From NCBI RefSeq assembly GCF_004300825.1, contig NZ_CP036250.1:124001-188000 (forward strand): DNA of 64,000 nt, written 5' to 3'. Below, in pieces: positions 23,685-60,802 of this stretch. The notes beneath the pieces were generated by a model that did not search any database, was not told the DNA's origin, and was given only the letters and a program-made list of their open reading frames with translations. How positions within the stretch are numbered: the stretch's first letter is position 1; each line of letters begins with the position of its first letter. This stretch comes from Egicoccus halophilus (GTDB taxonomy: Bacteria > Actinomycetota > Nitriliruptoria > Nitriliruptorales > Nitriliruptoraceae). A program made the translations under genes and the position numbers.

Positions 23685-23768
23685 CTCGGCCCCGCTCGGT
23701 CACGCCCACGCCCGGCTCCGTCCCGGGCCATGGTCACCGACCCACGTCACGGTCACCGACGCGACCGA

Positions 23769-23961
23769 CCGTGGCGTCGTGGAAGACCTGCGCACCCACC
23801 TCACTTCACGGATGCGCACCCGACCCGCGCACCCGCCCAACCGTGGAGTCGTGGAAGACCTGAGCACCCGCCTCGCTCCACGGATGCGCACCCGACCCGC
23901 GCACCCGCCCAACCGTGGAGTCGTGGAAGACCTGAGCACCCGCCTCGCTCCACGGATGGCG
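23769..23961. repeat. 72-bp tandem repeat with internal inverted arms
   Basis: Two full copies (23769-23840 and 23841-23912) and a partial third (from 23913). Copies two and three are nearly identical; the first differs at several bases. In copies two and three, CCGTGGAG and CTCCACGG form perfect 8-bp inverted arms around 27 bases (23841-23883 and 23913-23955). The first copy has decayed arms. No spacers differ between copies, so it is not a CRISPR array. Confidence 0.8.
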
Positions 23962-35698: not shown

Positions 35699-35862
35699 GG
35701 GCGCGGACGCTACCCGCCCATGGGCACCTGCTCCCCACCGGCACCGGCACCGGCACCGGCGCCGCGGTCGAGCGGGCACTTGCGCTCTCCGGCGGTGCAG
35801 GTCTGCACCGTTTGGCACCGGTCGGGCCGGGTGGTTCGACGGCGGGGCGTAATCTCGTGCGC

Positions 35863-38800
35863 ATGACTGCCCTGCCGCTACCGCCCCTGCCCGCGCATCC
35901 CTTCCTCGACGCCCTGCGCGAGCGGGTCGTCGTGTTCGACGGCGCGATGGGCACCTCGTTGCAGAACGCCGACCTGCACGCCGACGACTTCGGTGGCGAG
36001 GAGCTCGACGGCTGCAACGAGGTCCTGGTGCGTACGCGCCCCGACGTCGTCGCCGACGTCCACCGTGCGTTCCTCGAGGTGGGCGTCGACGCCGTGCAGA
36101 CCAACACGTTCGGTGGCGCACCGTGGGTGCTCGACGAGTACGACCTCGGCGACGACACCGAGGAGCTCAACCGGCTCGCCGCACTGGTGGCCCGCGAGGT
36201 GGCCGACGAGTACGCCACCCTCGAGCGGCCCCGCTGGGTGGTCGGCTCGATCGGCCCGGGCACCCGTGCGCCGACCCTGTCGCTGGGCAAGGACCCCGCG
36301 ACCACCAAGGACTTCATCGACGTCCCCACCATGGAGGACGGCTACCGGCGCCAGGTCCGCGGCCTGCTCGAGGGCGGCGCCGACGTGCTGCTGATCGAGA
36401 CGGCCTTCGACCTGCTGGCGATCAAGGCCGCCGTCGCGGCCTGTGACGACGTGTTCGCCGAGCGCGGTGCGCGTGTCCCCCTGATGGTGCAGTTCACCGT
36501 CGAGAAGGACATCAACACGATGCTGCTCGGGACCGAGCCGCTGGCGGCCGTCGCCGCGCTCGACCCGCTGTCGATCGACGTGCTGGGCATGAACTGCGCC
36601 ACCGGCCCCGAGGACATGCGCGAGCACGTGCGCACGCTGTCGCGCCACTCGCGCCTGCCGATCAGCGTCATCCCCAACGCCGGCATCCCCTACCTCGAGG
36701 ACGGCGAGACGATCTACCCGCTGGACCCCGCCGGGCTGGCCGCGGCGCAGCGCGAGTTCGTCACCGAGTTCGGCGTCAACGTCGTCGGCGGCTGTTGCGG
36801 CACCACGCCCGCGCATCTCGCCGCGGTCGTCGAGGCCACCCGTGACCTCGCGCCGCGGCCTCGTCGTCTCGACCGCCCGGCCTACGCCCGACCGGGCGCC
36901 GCCGGCCGCCTCACCGCCCCGGACGACCACACCACCCCGCCCGACGCCATCGTCGCCGGTGGCGCGGAGGCGAAGCCGAGCACGCACGGCGCCATCGTCG
37001 CCGGTGGCGCGGAGGCGAAGCCGAGCACGCACGGCGCCATCGTCGCCGGTGGCGCGGAGGCGAAGCCGAGCACGCACGGCGCCATCGTCGCCGGTGGCGC
37101 GGAGGCGAAGCCGAGCACGCACGGCGCCATCGTCGCCGGTGGCGCGGAGGCGAAGCCGAGCACGCACGGCGCCATAACCGTGGAGTGGCGACCGGCGCTG
37201 GCGTCGCTGTACGCGCCGGCGACCCTCGAGCAGGACAACGCGTTCCTGGCCATCGGCGAGCGCGCGAACGCCAACGGCTCCAAGGCGTTCCGCCAGCTGC
37301 TGTTGGCCCAGGACTGGGACGCCGCGGTGCAGCTCGCCAAGTCCCAGACGCGCGAGGGCGCGCACGTGCTCGACGTCTGCGTCGACTACGTCGGCCGCGA
37401 CGGCGTCCCGGACGTGGTCGCGATCGTCGACCGCTACGCGACCCAGTCGACCCTGCCGCTGGTCATCGACTCGACCGAGATCGAGGTGATCGAGGCCGCG
37501 CTGGTGCGGCTCGGTGGCCGGGCCGTCATCAACTCGGTGAACCTCGAGGACGGCCGCAACAAGGCCGACCGGCTGTTGCCGCTGGCCAAGCGCTACGGCG
37601 CGGCGGTCGTGGTGCTCGCGATCGACGAGGAGGGCCAGGCCCGCACCGCCGACTGGAAGGTCGAGGTGTGTGAACGCGTCGCCCGCATCGCCATCGACGA
37701 GTACGGCCTCGAAGCCCACGATCTGGTCTTCGACTGCCTGACGTTCCCGCTCGGGTCCGGGCAGGAGGATCTGCGCGGTGACGCGCTGGCGACCATCGAG
37801 GCCATCGAACGCGTCAAGCAGGCCGTGCCGGGCTGTTTCACCACGTTGGGCGTGTCCAACATCTCCTTCGGGTTGTCCCCGGCCGCCCGGCAGGTGTTGA
37901 ACTCGGTGTTCCTCAAGGCGGCCATGGACCGCGGTCTCGACTCCGCGATCGTGCACCCGGGCAAGATCCTGCCGCTGCACCGCATCCCCGACGAGCAGGT
38001 CACGGTCGCGCTCGACCTGATCCACGACCGCCGTGGCCGCGCCGGCCTGGACGGCACCGCCCCCGACGACTACGACCCGCTGCACCGCTTCATGGCGATG
38101 TTCGAGGGCGCCACCGAGACGAGGACCTCCGCGGAGGACCTGGCCGCGCTTCCGGTCGAGGAGCGCCTGCAGCGACGCATCGTCGACGGCGACCGCGACG
38201 GCATGGAGGCCGACCTCGACGAGGCGCTGGCCGCGGGGCACGCCCCACTGGCGATCATCAACGAGCACCTGTTGGCCGGGATGAAGGTCGTCGGCGAGCT
38301 GTTCGGGTCCGGACAGATGCAGCTGCCGTTCGTGCTGCAGTCGGCCGAGGCGATGAAGGCGGCGGTCGGCCACCTCGAACCGCACATCGAGGCGGCCGGC
38401 GGTGGGTCGTCGTCGAAGGGCTCGATCGTGCTGGCGACCGTGCGCGGTGACGTGCACGACATCGGCAAGAACCTCGTCGACATCATCCTGCGCAACAACG
38501 GCTACGAGGTCCACAACCTCGGCATCAAGCAGCCGATCGACGCGATCCTCGCCGCCGCGGAGGAACGCGGGGTCGACGCGGTCGGCATGTCCGGCTTGCT
38601 GGTGAAGTCGACCGTGGTCATGCGCGACAACCTCGAGGAGATGAACGTCCGTCGCGTCGCGCACCTGCCGGTGCTGCTCGGCGGAGCGGCGTTGACCCGT
38701 GGCTACGTCGAGGACGACCTGCGGGCGCTGTACGAGGGCGACGTCTTCTACTGCAAGGACGCCTTCGAGGGGCTGCGGGTGCTCGACGCGGTGCTGAGCG

Positions 38801-39744
38801 CCCGCAGGCAGGGCCTCGAGGCACCCGAGGAGCTCACCGCCCGCCGTGAGCGCCGCACCCCGACGCGCACCCGCAAGGTCGAGCAGCCGCCGGTCGTCGA
38901 CGCCCACGGCCGTCCGCGTTCCGCGGTGGCCACCGACGTCGCGGTCCCGACCCCGCCGTTCTGGGGGCAGCGGGTCGTGCGCGGCATCGGCGTCGACGAG
39001 GTGTGGCCGCTGCTCAACGAGATCGCGCTGTTCCGCAACCAGTGGGGGTTCACGCCGGGCGAGCTGTCCCCCGACGCGTACCAGGCGATGCTCGACGCCA
39101 GGGCCCGGCCGGTCGTGCGTGAGTGGCTCGACCGCGCCAAGGCGGAGAAGGTCGTCACGCCCGAGGTCGTCTACGGCTACTACCCGGCCAACGGCGACGG
39201 CGACGACCTGGTCGTGTGGGACCCGGCCGCGCCGCTGGAGAAGGAACTGGTCCGCTTCACCTTCCCACGCCAGGACCGGGGGCGGTTCCTCGACATCGCC
39301 GACTTCTTCCGGCCGCTGGACTCGGGCGAGGTGGACGTGCTCGGCGTCCAGGTCGTGACGATGGGCCGGCGGATCAGCGAGGTGGCGCAGGAGCTGTTCG
39401 CCGCCGACCGCTACCAGGACTACCTGTTCGCCCACGGCTTCGGGGTCGAGATGGCCGAGGCGCTCGCGGAGCTGTGGCACCGGCGGGTGCGCGAGGAGCT
39501 CGGCATCGCCGGCGAGGACGGGGCGACCAAGGAGGACTGGTTCCGTCAGGGCTACCGCGGCTCGCGCTACTCGTTCGGCTACGCCGCCTGCCCGGACCTC
39601 GAGGACCAGGCCAAGCTGTTCCAGCTGATCGACCCGGGCCTGATCGAGGTCGAGCTCACCGAGGAGTTCATGCTCCACCCCGAGCAGTCCACCTCCGCGA
39701 TCATCGTGCACCACCCGCAGGCGAAGTACTTCAACGCCCGCTGA
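35863..39744 (+). CDS. metH: Cobalamin-dependent methionine synthase
   Basis: A full-length 1293-residue MetH. The homocysteine domain (about 1-335) has zinc ligands C245 (GMNCATG) and C311/C312 (GGCCG). The pterin domain starts at IGERANANGS, just after residue 440. The B12 cap and binding domains carry DVHDIG with H865 as cobalt ligand, and the C-terminal reactivation domain follows (VRGIGVDEVWPL to YGYAACPDLEDQ). Residues 362-436, between the homocysteine and pterin domains, are five identical 15-residue repeats (AIVAGGAEAKPSTHG) from a 45-bp minisatellite. ATG at 35863. No cobalamin riboswitch is recognised upstream. The very long minus-strand open frame is a shadow. Confidence 0.96.
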   Translation: MTALPLPPLPAHPFLDALRERVVVFDGAMGTSLQNADLHADDFGGEELDGCNEVLVRTRPDVVADVHRAFLEVGVDAVQTNTFGGAPWVLDEYDLGDDTEELNRLAALVAREVADEYATLERPRWVVGSIGPGTRAPTLSLGKDPATTKDFIDVPTMEDGYRRQVRGLLEGGADVLLIETAFDLLAIKAAVAACDDVFAERGARVPLMVQFTVEKDINTMLLGTEPLAAVAALDPLSIDVLGMNCATGPEDMREHVRTLSRHSRLPISVIPNAGIPYLEDGETIYPLDPAGLAAAQREFVTEFGVNVVGGCCGTTPAHLAAVVEATRDLAPRPRRLDRPAYARPGAAGRLTAPDDHTTPPDAIVAGGAEAKPSTHGAIVAGGAEAKPSTHGAIVAGGAEAKPSTHGAIVAGGAEAKPSTHGAIVAGGAEAKPSTHGAITVEWRPALASLYAPATLEQDNAFLAIGERANANGSKAFRQLLLAQDWDAAVQLAKSQTREGAHVLDVCVDYVGRDGVPDVVAIVDRYATQSTLPLVIDSTEIEVIEAALVRLGGRAVINSVNLEDGRNKADRLLPLAKRYGAAVVVLAIDEEGQARTADWKVEVCERVARIAIDEYGLEAHDLVFDCLTFPLGSGQEDLRGDALATIEAIERVKQAVPGCFTTLGVSNISFGLSPAARQVLNSVFLKAAMDRGLDSAIVHPGKILPLHRIPDEQVTVALDLIHDRRGRAGLDGTAPDDYDPLHRFMAMFEGATETRTSAEDLAALPVEERLQRRIVDGDRDGMEADLDEALAAGHAPLAIINEHLLAGMKVVGELFGSGQMQLPFVLQSAEAMKAAVGHLEPHIEAAGGGSSSKGSIVLATVRGDVHDIGKNLVDIILRNNGYEVHNLGIKQPIDAILAAAEERGVDAVGMSGLLVKSTVVMRDNLEEMNVRRVAHLPVLLGGAALTRGYVEDDLRALYEGDVFYCKDAFEGLRVLDAVLSARRQGLEAPEELTARRERRTPTRTRKVEQPPVVDAHGRPRSAVATDVAVPTPPFWGQRVVRGIGVDEVWPLLNEIALFRNQWGFTPGELSPDAYQAMLDARARPVVREWLDRAKAEKVVTPEVVYGYYPANGDGDDLVVWDPAAPLEKELVRFTFPRQDRGRFLDIADFFRPLDSGEVDVLGVQVVTMGRRISEVAQELFAADRYQDYLFAHGFGVEMAEALAELWHRRVREELGIAGEDGATKEDWFRQGYRGSRYSFGYAACPDLEDQAKLFQLIDPGLIEVELTEEFMLHPEQSTSAIIVHHPQAKYFNAR
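36946..37170 (+). repeat. 45-bp minisatellite, five identical copies, inside metH
   Basis: Copies start at 36946, 36991, 37036, 37081 and 37126 and are identical base for base. The unit keeps the metH frame. Perfect identity over 225 bp points to recent expansion or homogenisation. Confidence 0.95.
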
Positions 39745-39866
39745 CAACGCCCACCACCCGAGCCGCAGGGTGGGCGACGTCGATCGGATCGTGCACCACC
39801 CGCAGGCGAAGTACTTCAACGCCCGCTGACAACACCCACCACCCGAGCCGCAGGGTGGGCGACGTC
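39703..39866 (+). repeat. Tandem duplication of the metH 3' end and its hairpin
   Basis: Bases 39703-39787 are repeated at 39788-39866 with about one mismatch and a short terminal truncation (85-bp period). The unit covers the last 13 metH codons, the stop and a hairpin with GCCCACC/GGTGGGC arms. The second copy repeats the metH tail (IVHHPQAKYFNAR and stop) downstream of the true stop. The hairpin is probably the metH terminator, now present twice. Confidence 0.88.
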
Positions 39867-58398: not shown

Positions 58399-58878
58399 AT
58401 GGAACGCAAGACCGGTCGTCGTATCGGGCGCATGCGCTCGTTCGTGGTGCTGACCGCCCTGGTGGGCAGCATGTTCGCGGGCATCGGCGCCGCCACCGCC
58501 GACGAGGCGGCCCCCCAGCGCGGGATCAGCTGGGTCGGCAGCGTCACCGAGACCGTGGCCGCGGACGCCGGGGAGCTGACCACGCAGGGCATCAGCTGGG
58601 TCGGACTCCGCGGCATCAGCTGGGTCGGCGCACAGGGCATCAGCTGGGTCGGCGGCATCAGCTGGGTCGGCGCGCAGTCGCAGGGCATCAGCTGGGTCGG
58701 CGCGCAGGGGATCACCTGGGTGCGCGGCATCAGCTGGGTCGGCGCGCAGTCGCAGGGCATCAGCTGGGTCGGCGCGCAGGGGATCACCTGGGTGCGCGGC
58801 ATCAGCTGGGTCGGCGCGCAGTCGCAGGGCATCAGCTGGGTCGGCGCACAGGCCCGCGGCATCAGCTGGGTCGGCTGA
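58399..58878 (+). CDS. Secreted protein built of GISWVG hexapeptide repeats
   Basis: A 159-residue precursor. A basic start (MERKTGRRIGRMR) and hydrophobic core end in AATA-DEA, giving a signal peptide cleaved near residue 34. From G42 to the last residue there are 13 hexapeptides: 11 GISWVG and two GITWVR. They are joined by short linkers (AQ, AQSQ, AQAR, LR or none), and the chain ends exactly with GISWVG. Distances between tryptophans are 22, 8, 8, 6, 10, 8, 6, 10, 8, 6, 10 and 10, all even, so every Trp would face the same side of extended strands. No cysteines and no domain are recognised. ATG at 58399 follows AGGAG by seven bases. A histidine kinase gene follows. The protein may self-assemble on the cell surface (inference). 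Confidence 0.82.
   Translation: MERKTGRRIGRMRSFVVLTALVGSMFAGIGAATADEAAPQRGISWVGSVTETVAADAGELTTQGISWVGLRGISWVGAQGISWVGGISWVGAQSQGISWVGAQGITWVRGISWVGAQSQGISWVGAQGITWVRGISWVGAQSQGISWVGAQARGISWVG
58522..58875 (+). repeat. Internal repeats with 72-bp higher-order unit
   Basis: The DNA encoding the hexapeptides repeats at two levels. Single units are 18-30 bp. A 72-bp block (three hexapeptides with linkers AQSQ, AQ and none) starts at 58654 and recurs at 58726, with a partial third from 58798. All units keep frame. Confidence 0.88.
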
Positions 58879-58999: not shown

Positions 59000-60802
59000 G
59001 TGAGAAACCGCAGGATCGAACTCTACGTCGCCAGCTGGGCGCTGTTCGCGGTCGGCATCCTCGGTGCGGTCATCCTCGCCACCGGGGTCGAGCCGCCCTC
59101 GCTGCTGCACCTCGTGATCCTCGTGGTGGCCATCGCCGCCGGTGAACGCATCGAACTGCGCTTCACCTTCGACCGCGCGACGATCGCGCTCACGCTGGTC
59201 GAGGCCGCGATCGCGGCCGGGCTGCTGCTGACCTCACCCACCGAGGCCGTCGTCGCCACCGGACTCGGCATGCTCGGTGGGCAGACCCTCCGGCGACTCG
59301 ACCTGGTCAAGACCAGTTTCAACACGGCACAGGCCATGGTCGGTACGGCCGCGGCCGCCACGATCCTGCATCTGGCCCCGCCGATCGGTCCGCTGGTCAA
59401 CGACCTTCCGGTGTTCGCGGTCATCGCCGGGATGATCGCCTACGTCGGGGTCAACGCCGTCGCGATGCTGGGTCTGGTCACCATCACCGACGGTCCCCTG
59501 GGCCGCGAGGGCCTGCTCCGACAACTCCCGCTGCTGGGCACGATCGCTCTGGGCAACACGGCGATCGGGGTGGTGCTGGCGGCCTTGCTGATCGTCCAGC
59601 CCGCCCTGGCCCCGCTGTTCCTGGTCCCGCTCGCCGCGATCTACTTCGCCGCCCACGGCGTCCAGCGCACCTCCGACCTGCTCGAACGCGTCCGCACCGA
59701 CCGTGACCGGCTCACCCGCGTCATCGACGGCACGGCCGACGGCATCGTCCTGCTCGACCGCGACGGCACGATCCAGGTCTGGAACGCGGCGATGGAGGAG
59801 CTGACCGGGTTGACCGCGGACCGGGTCGTGAACCGCCCGGTCGAGCGCGTGCTCACCCCGTCGCTGCGGGAGGGCGACAGCGAGGTCTCGGGCCGGTGGC
59901 TCATCGACGAGGCCCACGAGGGTGCGCAGCACCGGGAGTTCGACGCCCGGATCCGCCATGTCGACGGGCGCGCGCACGAGGTGCGGGAGAACCACTCGCT
60001 GCTCTTCGACGACCGCGGCCGCTGCATCGGTGACGTCGTCGTCGTCCGCGACGTCACCAAGCAGCGCGAGCTCGAACGCCTGCGGGGCGACTTCGTGGCC
60101 CGGGTGTCCCACGAGCTGCGCACGCCGCTGACCCCGATCCGCGGGTTCGCCTCCGTCCTGCTGCGCAAGGGCGACCAACTCGATGTCTCCAGTCGCCAGG
60201 AGGCCCTCGAGCGGATCGTGGAGCGCTCCGACCACCTGGCGGCCGTGGTCGAGGACCTGCTGCTGGTCACCCGCCTCGACCAACAGGAGATCGACGACCT
60301 GGTCCACCCGGTCCCGACCGATCTCGAGCCGGTGCTCGAGGAACTCATCGAGACCTTCGCCGAACGCGAGCCCACCCGCACGATCCTGTTCTCCGCGGAA
60401 CCGGGGACCGGGGCCGCGCTCGCCGATCCGGCACGTGCCCGGCAGATCGTCGCCGCCCTACTCGACAACGCCTGTCGGTACTCGCCCCAGGACGCGCCCG
60501 TCGAGGTCACCCTCGACCAGACCGGTGACGACATCCGTGTCCGCGTCATCGACTCGGGGCCGGGAGTTCCGCGCGAACACCGGCAGAGCATCTTCGAACA
60601 GTTCCATCGTCTCGAGGACCCGCTGACCATGCGCACCGGCGGTGTCGGGCTGGGGCTGTTCATCGGACGTCGACTCGCCCAGGCCATGCACGGCGAACTC
60701 GACCTCGAACTCACCAAGCCGGCCACCGGCAGTCGCTTCGTGCTGCGGCTACCGGCGGCGATTCCGGTGACTCGGGTACGCCGACAGGACTTGACCGGCT
60801 GA
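59000..60802 (+). CDS. Membrane histidine kinase with PAS domain
   Basis: A 600-residue sensor kinase. Six to eight hydrophobic segments fill residues 8-225 with no large extracellular loop, resembling membrane-embedded MASE-type sensors. A PAS domain follows (DGIVLLDRDGTIQVWNAA). The HisKA motif SHELRTPL carries H371. The ATP-binding domain has DNACRYSP (N box), DSGPGVP (G1) and GGVGLGLF (G2), so it should be active. No response-regulator gene is adjacent, making it an orphan in this window. GTG at 59000, 121 bp after the GISWVG protein gene on the same strand. The signal is unknown. Confidence 0.92.
   Translation: MRNRRIELYVASWALFAVGILGAVILATGVEPPSLLHLVILVVAIAAGERIELRFTFDRATIALTLVEAAIAAGLLLTSPTEAVVATGLGMLGGQTLRRLDLVKTSFNTAQAMVGTAAAATILHLAPPIGPLVNDLPVFAVIAGMIAYVGVNAVAMLGLVTITDGPLGREGLLRQLPLLGTIALGNTAIGVVLAALLIVQPALAPLFLVPLAAIYFAAHGVQRTSDLLERVRTDRDRLTRVIDGTADGIVLLDRDGTIQVWNAAMEELTGLTADRVVNRPVERVLTPSLREGDSEVSGRWLIDEAHEGAQHREFDARIRHVDGRAHEVRENHSLLFDDRGRCIGDVVVVRDVTKQRELERLRGDFVARVSHELRTPLTPIRGFASVLLRKGDQLDVSSRQEALERIVERSDHLAAVVEDLLLVTRLDQQEIDDLVHPVPTDLEPVLEELIETFAEREPTRTILFSAEPGTGAALADPARARQIVAALLDNACRYSPQDAPVEVTLDQTGDDIRVRVIDSGPGVPREHRQSIFEQFHRLEDPLTMRTGGVGLGLFIGRRLAQAMHGELDLELTKPATGSRFVLRLPAAIPVTRVRRQDLTG

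Follow-up and report, generated by a model that had tools for sequence, protein, structure and literature searches.

In signaling systems of the ComX-ComP type, a polytopic histidine kinase is encoded next to a secreted peptide in which a key Trp residue has variable flanks. For the membrane-associated sensor domain MASE9 (PF20972), we found no peptide partner in the literature covered. A further point of reference is the fold of ECF transporter S components, which implies a ligand pocket. Here we describe a pair of genes from a 64,000-nucleotide stretch of the Egicoccus halophilus genome (the window), which by analogy appears to resemble systems of a secreted peptide and a membrane kinase such as ComX-ComP.

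The Trp-repeat gene and the kinase downstream

The locus consists of the following features, in window coordinates:

58399..58878, + strand: Trp-repeat protein gene (ATG start, TGA stop, 159 aa), with orthologs in two genomes of the same genus
58399..58500, + strand: signal peptide MERKTGRRIGRMRSFVVLTALVGSMFAGIGAATA, with putative cleavage after ATA, conserved in orthologs L009 and L010
58522..58875, + strand: array of 13 GI[ST]WV[GR] motifs with Gln/Ala/Ser linkers, underlain by a 72-bp tandem DNA unit
59000..60802, + strand: PAS histidine kinase gene (600 aa, GTG start; Pfam PF00989 PAS, PF00512 HisKA, PF02518 HATPase_c)
59009..59710, + strand: N-terminal membrane sensor domain of the kinase (alignment A3, AlphaFold2 model), without a Pfam match of its own
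59153..59194, + strand: beta-hairpin (ELRFTF / TIALTL) inside the sensor domain, residues 49-62 of the AlphaFold2 model

The repeat ORF is a genuine gene. Its reading frame is supported by a GC content of 95% at third codon positions and by the two orthologs from the same genus (L009 and L010), which share its signal peptide and a gene order that includes the kinase and a metallo-beta-lactamase-like gene. Differences between the window gene and the orthologs are concentrated at third codon positions, where there are 20, 21 and 23, compared with 3-8 at second positions. On these three grounds a chance or spurious ORF is ruled out. The gene is present in a single copy in the 3.98-Mb genome.

Its translation holds 13 Trp residues, in 11 GISWVG and two GITWVR motifs. 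A preliminary description of this DNA, made from the letters and their open reading frames, had spoken of 13 Trp-bearing hexapeptides, GISWVG or GITWVR, and this number stands. In the orthologs, GISWT/GFSWT repeats take the place of GISWVG. The signal peptide, recognized by eye from the sequence, has a basic n-region, a hydrophobic core and an A-x-A site. The small, signal-bearing Trp-repeat protein of the preliminary description is thereby confirmed as an ORF with a conserved signal, export being a call made by eye. No match to the protein was found in Pfam, NCBIfam, PADLOC or PDB sequences, in agreement with the earlier remark that the motif was not recognized from any named family, and a search of named genomes with the window protein as query likewise gave no match. 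A role as a phage-defense gene was considered and set aside on the PADLOC result.

The stop codon of the repeat gene lies 121 bp from the kinase start, and the two genes are likely co-transcribed. No response regulator is present among the genes adjoining the kinase. The AlphaFold2 model of the sensor domain (pLDDT 94.3) is helical with one beta-hairpin; as positive charge occurs both in the turn of the hairpin and in the loop that follows, it could face either side of the membrane. When this model was compared with the PDB by Foldseek, the top matches were nearly all ECF S components; the best, RibU, had a TM-score of 0.65 by target length and a probability of 1.00, but an E-value of 4.3e-3. 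The domain had no sequence match in the PDB. From the model, it is predicted to adopt the fold of an ECF S component. Among 45 relatives of the domain, 11 matched MASE9 (best E-value 5.5e-7) and two the ECF transporter S-component family, while the window's own domain matched neither. A whole-genome search with MASE9 scored only one other locus, at 21.8 bits, under the curated cut-off of 24.3 bits. Judged by its matching relatives, the N-terminal domain of the kinase appears to be a distant relative of MASE9.

Other repeats were observed elsewhere in the window, and two of them involve a methionine synthase-like ORF (35812-39744). At 36938-37175, five tandem copies of 45 bp, all in frame, add (HGAIVAGGAEAKPST)x5 to its product, at what seems to be a junction between domains; at 39703-39866, a direct repeat of 85 bp (1.9 copies, 98%) spans the end and stop codon of the ORF. 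A tandem repeat with a 72-bp unit (2.7 copies, 95% match) lies at 23768-23958.

Pairing of the sensor domain with Trp arrays

We searched for relatives of the sensor domain by alignment. The domain was present in 38 of 60 genomes of the class and in 121 of 398 sampled genomes of the phylum Actinomycetota (93 of 234 genera). Among named records, alignment A4 proved too loose, and A5 gave one relative, a Nitriliruptoraceae MAG (L226), from the window's own family. No plasmid carried a relative of the sensor domain that was tested.

The flanks of the sensor genes were then retrieved and their upstream ORFs scored for Trp arrays. A sensor was counted as linked if an ORF on the same strand, with a chain of at least six regularly spaced Trp residues, ended no more than 400 bp upstream of it. 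Of the 121 sensor genes, 60 had such an array upstream; at the same loci, this held for 1 of the 439 other genes and for 10 of 2690 positions drawn at random (Fisher p 3e-45, a value that overstates independence, as the sensors are related). Linked sensors occurred across the whole sensor tree. In the sense of a secreted peptide and its sensor, then, the two are a conserved gene pair, with a Trp gene retained beside the sensor gene. A relaxed count by eye that admitted single-motif and divergent forms, for which there is no matched control, linked approximately 79 of 122 sensors. About one-third of the sensors have no recognizable Trp partner nearby, which counts against reading the motif as a ligand.

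A plain TGG-period pattern in DNA gave at least three matches in 41 of the 54 genomes with a strong sensor; it also picks up non-coding DNA repeats and hence does not serve as our main evidence. Class arrays recovered from the DNA pattern, independently of the sensor, that lay in coding frame were all linked to a sensor or situated at a contig edge. Four class-level pattern loci had no sensor, and none of these was in coding frame.

The signaling output attached to the sensor is exchanged from kinase to c-di-GMP modules. Thirty-six Trp-linked sensors were kinases and 30 had GGDEF-EAL outputs (ten outputs were checked in Pfam). The arrangement recurs in other genera and families. At L013 and L014, for example, the homologous sensor domain sits on a GAF-GGDEF-EAL protein beside Trp arrays; at L012 it sits on a kinase, and the gene in front encodes an S8 subtilase that ends in repeated GVNWR. 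Because both kinds of output are Trp-linked, the membrane domain would be the part of the protein that the Trp motif tracks. The window genome itself has a second Trp-linked sensor (L128, G000:C1:567728-578312), in which the gene upstream of an ECF-S-like GAF-GGDEF-EAL protein encodes an S8 subtilase that bears a TRSWR array.

Across Actinomycetota, the usual carrier of the array is the C-terminal tail of a secreted S8 subtilase. All ten tail-bearing proteins tested against Pfam matched PF00082 (S8). We also sampled S8 peptidases with complete tails from five genomes (n = 21): the four with a Trp tail were all encoded beside a sensor, and none of the 17 untailed peptidases was. Pairs of a W-tailed subtilase and a sensor are tandemly duplicated at L121, L124 and L127, two or three in series, with differing motifs.

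A possible explanation for this arrangement is that the Trp tail is a C-terminal sorting tag, which directs export or anchoring, with the membrane domain as its receptor. Such a tag would be expected where the tail is found, at the very C-terminal end of secreted enzymes whose genes lie beside that of a dedicated membrane protein. That membrane protein, however, ends in signaling modules rather than in a peptidase or translocase, and the small forms described below consist of little besides the motif, so we regard a sorting tag as improbable.

The window belongs to a supported clade (96) of ten sensors, nested in the sensor tree among sensors with W-tailed subtilases. In nine of the ten, the upstream gene encodes a small Trp protein with a signal peptide (by eye) and no subtilase. 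The carrier of the motif thus changes here from a subtilase to a small protein. The number of motif copies falls from 12-14 in the genus of the window to several in L011, two in L080 (..GLSWLGLSWL) and, at the lowest, one. In three 42-aa precursors, all that follows the signal peptide is ..GSPLVAGWVWIR, ..SSPIVAGWVWIR or ..SSPFVAGWIWIR, giving predicted mature forms of about 12 residues. The parsimonious reading of these sequences is that the protease was lost in this clade and the motif kept; the motif, and not the protease, would therefore be the part paired with the sensor.

In one genus (G042, G047, G048 and G055), small Trp genes are divergent from the sensor gene and have no visible signal peptide. 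Signal-less divergent ORFs of this kind were seen at L013, L014, L103, L110, L114 and L115 (e.g., MTRKTDG(ATWAG)n). They do not fit an extracellular ligand unless another export route exists.

Trp spacing and the candidate roles of the motif

The preliminary description had placed its emphasis on the even register of the Trp residues. All 12 Trp-Trp distances in the window array are indeed even (22, 8, 8, 6, 10, 8, 6, 10, 8, 6, 10 and 10), but this regularity is not conserved. Near-identical 72-bp DNA units (96% match) have recently expanded to form the array, and the 12 distances therefore represent few independent events. One distance in ortholog L010 is 19, the distances in L011 are 5, 6, 5, 6, 5, 6 and 11, and the commonest spacing is 5 in 53 of the 60 sensor-linked arrays, with the consensus G-x-[ST]-W-[ST]. 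The residues flanking the motif differ widely from locus to locus. An even register as a conserved design is ruled out by the distances in L010 and L011 and by the period of 5 in most relatives; compared across these sequences, even parity seems to be a detail of the lineage. What stays constant is the neighboring sensor gene, which lay beyond the reach of the preliminary description.

The same observations bear on the proposal, also made in the preliminary description, of a curli-type or other functional amyloid in which strands stack with Trp on one face. A composition of Gly, Ile, Val and Trp would suit such a structure, and AlphaFold2 draws strands for a related array. These strands come from a read-through fusion, in which the stop codon between a period-5 tail and its sensor was removed; the tail was modeled at a pLDDT of approximately 42, a confidence that speaks neither for nor against beta structure, and the same model gave no confident docking of tail and sensor. 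Several features of the family are at odds with the proposal: register varies among 5, 6, 8, 10 and 19, members with one or two motifs exist, and arrays mostly ride on proteases. In addition, the repeat protein has no Pfam match, and no curli-like genes occur among its annotated neighbors. We consider an amyloid very improbable, and strand stacking with Trp on one face is not supported.

We favor, by a modest measure, the reading that the repeat protein is the exported partner, probably the ligand, of the adjoining ECF-S-fold sensor kinase, and that its repeats are the same Trp element as the subtilase tails. For this account we infer physical binding, the direction of signaling, a role for proteolysis and, from the signal peptide read by eye, export. 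The Trp-repeat protein would be exported by Sec, and its Trp motifs, singly or several together and either intact or freed by proteolysis, would engage the ECF-S-fold membrane domain. The attached output module, a PAS-histidine kinase here and GGDEF-EAL in others, would then change state, and the cell would thus monitor the Trp-motif protein that it secretes, or the accumulation or proteolysis of that protein. Weighing against this reading, besides the signal-less forms of one genus and the sensors with no recognizable partner, are the variable residues around the motif, the positively charged hairpin with its ambiguous topology, the lack of confident docking in the read-through fusion, and the lack of a response regulator next to the kinase.

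A special case of this ligand reading is a multi-copy pheromone precursor, which would be cut between motifs to give Trp peptides detected by the sensor, with the subtilase as the processing enzyme elsewhere. Tandem copies with linkers are suggestive of such a precursor, as are the GW[VI]WIR ends of the predicted 12-residue peptides and the substrate-like array that partner subtilases bear on their own chain. Yet no cleavage residue is conserved between motifs, strict period-5 arrays are almost without linkers, and the window copy has no dedicated processing gene alongside. We therefore think it rather unlikely that cutting between motifs is how the array works.

Similarly doubtful, to about the same degree, is the view that the Trp array is a co-regulated binding or adhesive element of the surface or matrix (cell wall, polysaccharide or membrane interface), and that the sensor controls its production without contact. 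Control of biofilms is a typical role of GGDEF-EAL outputs, and Gly/Ser/Trp arrays, which reach up to 26 copies (L237), would suit multivalent binding. On the other hand, linkage follows the membrane domain of the sensor across differing outputs, and mature peptides with one motif and some 12 residues would make poor adhesins. Nor does ordinary co-regulation explain why only the Trp tail follows the sensor and the S8 domain does not.

More tentatively than for the window pair, we suggest that Trp motifs and ECF-S-fold sensors could together constitute a widespread, undescribed signaling system of Actinomycetota. The motif, whether a 12-mer, a repeat or tethered to a subtilase, might be a ligand that feeds two-component or c-di-GMP signaling, which would give cells a readout of the proteins they secrete or of proteolysis outside the cell. 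In the literature covered, to which subscription journals and preprints did not belong, we found no account of the motif or of what MASE9 does, and none of subtilases with Trp tails next to sensors of this kind. With the pairing, an uncharacterized low-complexity ORF becomes half of a conserved pair across many actinobacterial families. The pairing also suggests what the Trp tails of secreted subtilases may do and which class of ligand the membrane sensor domain may have, and the natural minimal forms, peptides of 12 residues, open the idea to testing with synthetic peptides.

Comparison with described families and systems

Pentapeptide repeats (PF00805, PF13599) share with most Trp arrays a period of 5. 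Two tails gave weak matches to these families, both under the curated cut-offs, and the window protein gave none. Unlike pentapeptide repeats, the Trp motif G-x-[ST]-W-x has no small residue at the packing position, and the window array does not have a period of 5. Membership in the pentapeptide beta-helices is ruled out by the lack of a window match, the sub-threshold scores of the relatives and a spacing that is not strictly five. The S8 subtilases (PF00082) carry the same Trp array in most relatives; the window protein, in contrast, has no protease domain, and Trp tails are absent from the ordinary subtilases of those genomes.

As for the sensor, MASE9 and the window domain are both polytopic N-terminal sensor domains fused to bacterial signaling outputs, although the latter goes unmatched and thus falls under the curated cut-off of 24.3 bits. 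ECF S components (RibU, ThiT, BioY and FolT) resemble it in predicted fold, but domains of the window type are fused to a kinase or to GGDEF-EAL and not to a transporter.

Compared from the genes alone, the likeness to ComX-ComP lies in a gene for a secreted Trp peptide or protein beside a polytopic histidine kinase, with variable flanks around the Trp. In contrast to ComX-ComP, no ComQ-like modifying gene was seen in systems of the window type, and the window protein has a predicted Sec signal peptide. Their Trp motifs come as tandem copies or as protease tails, and the ECF-S-fold sensor also drives c-di-GMP modules.
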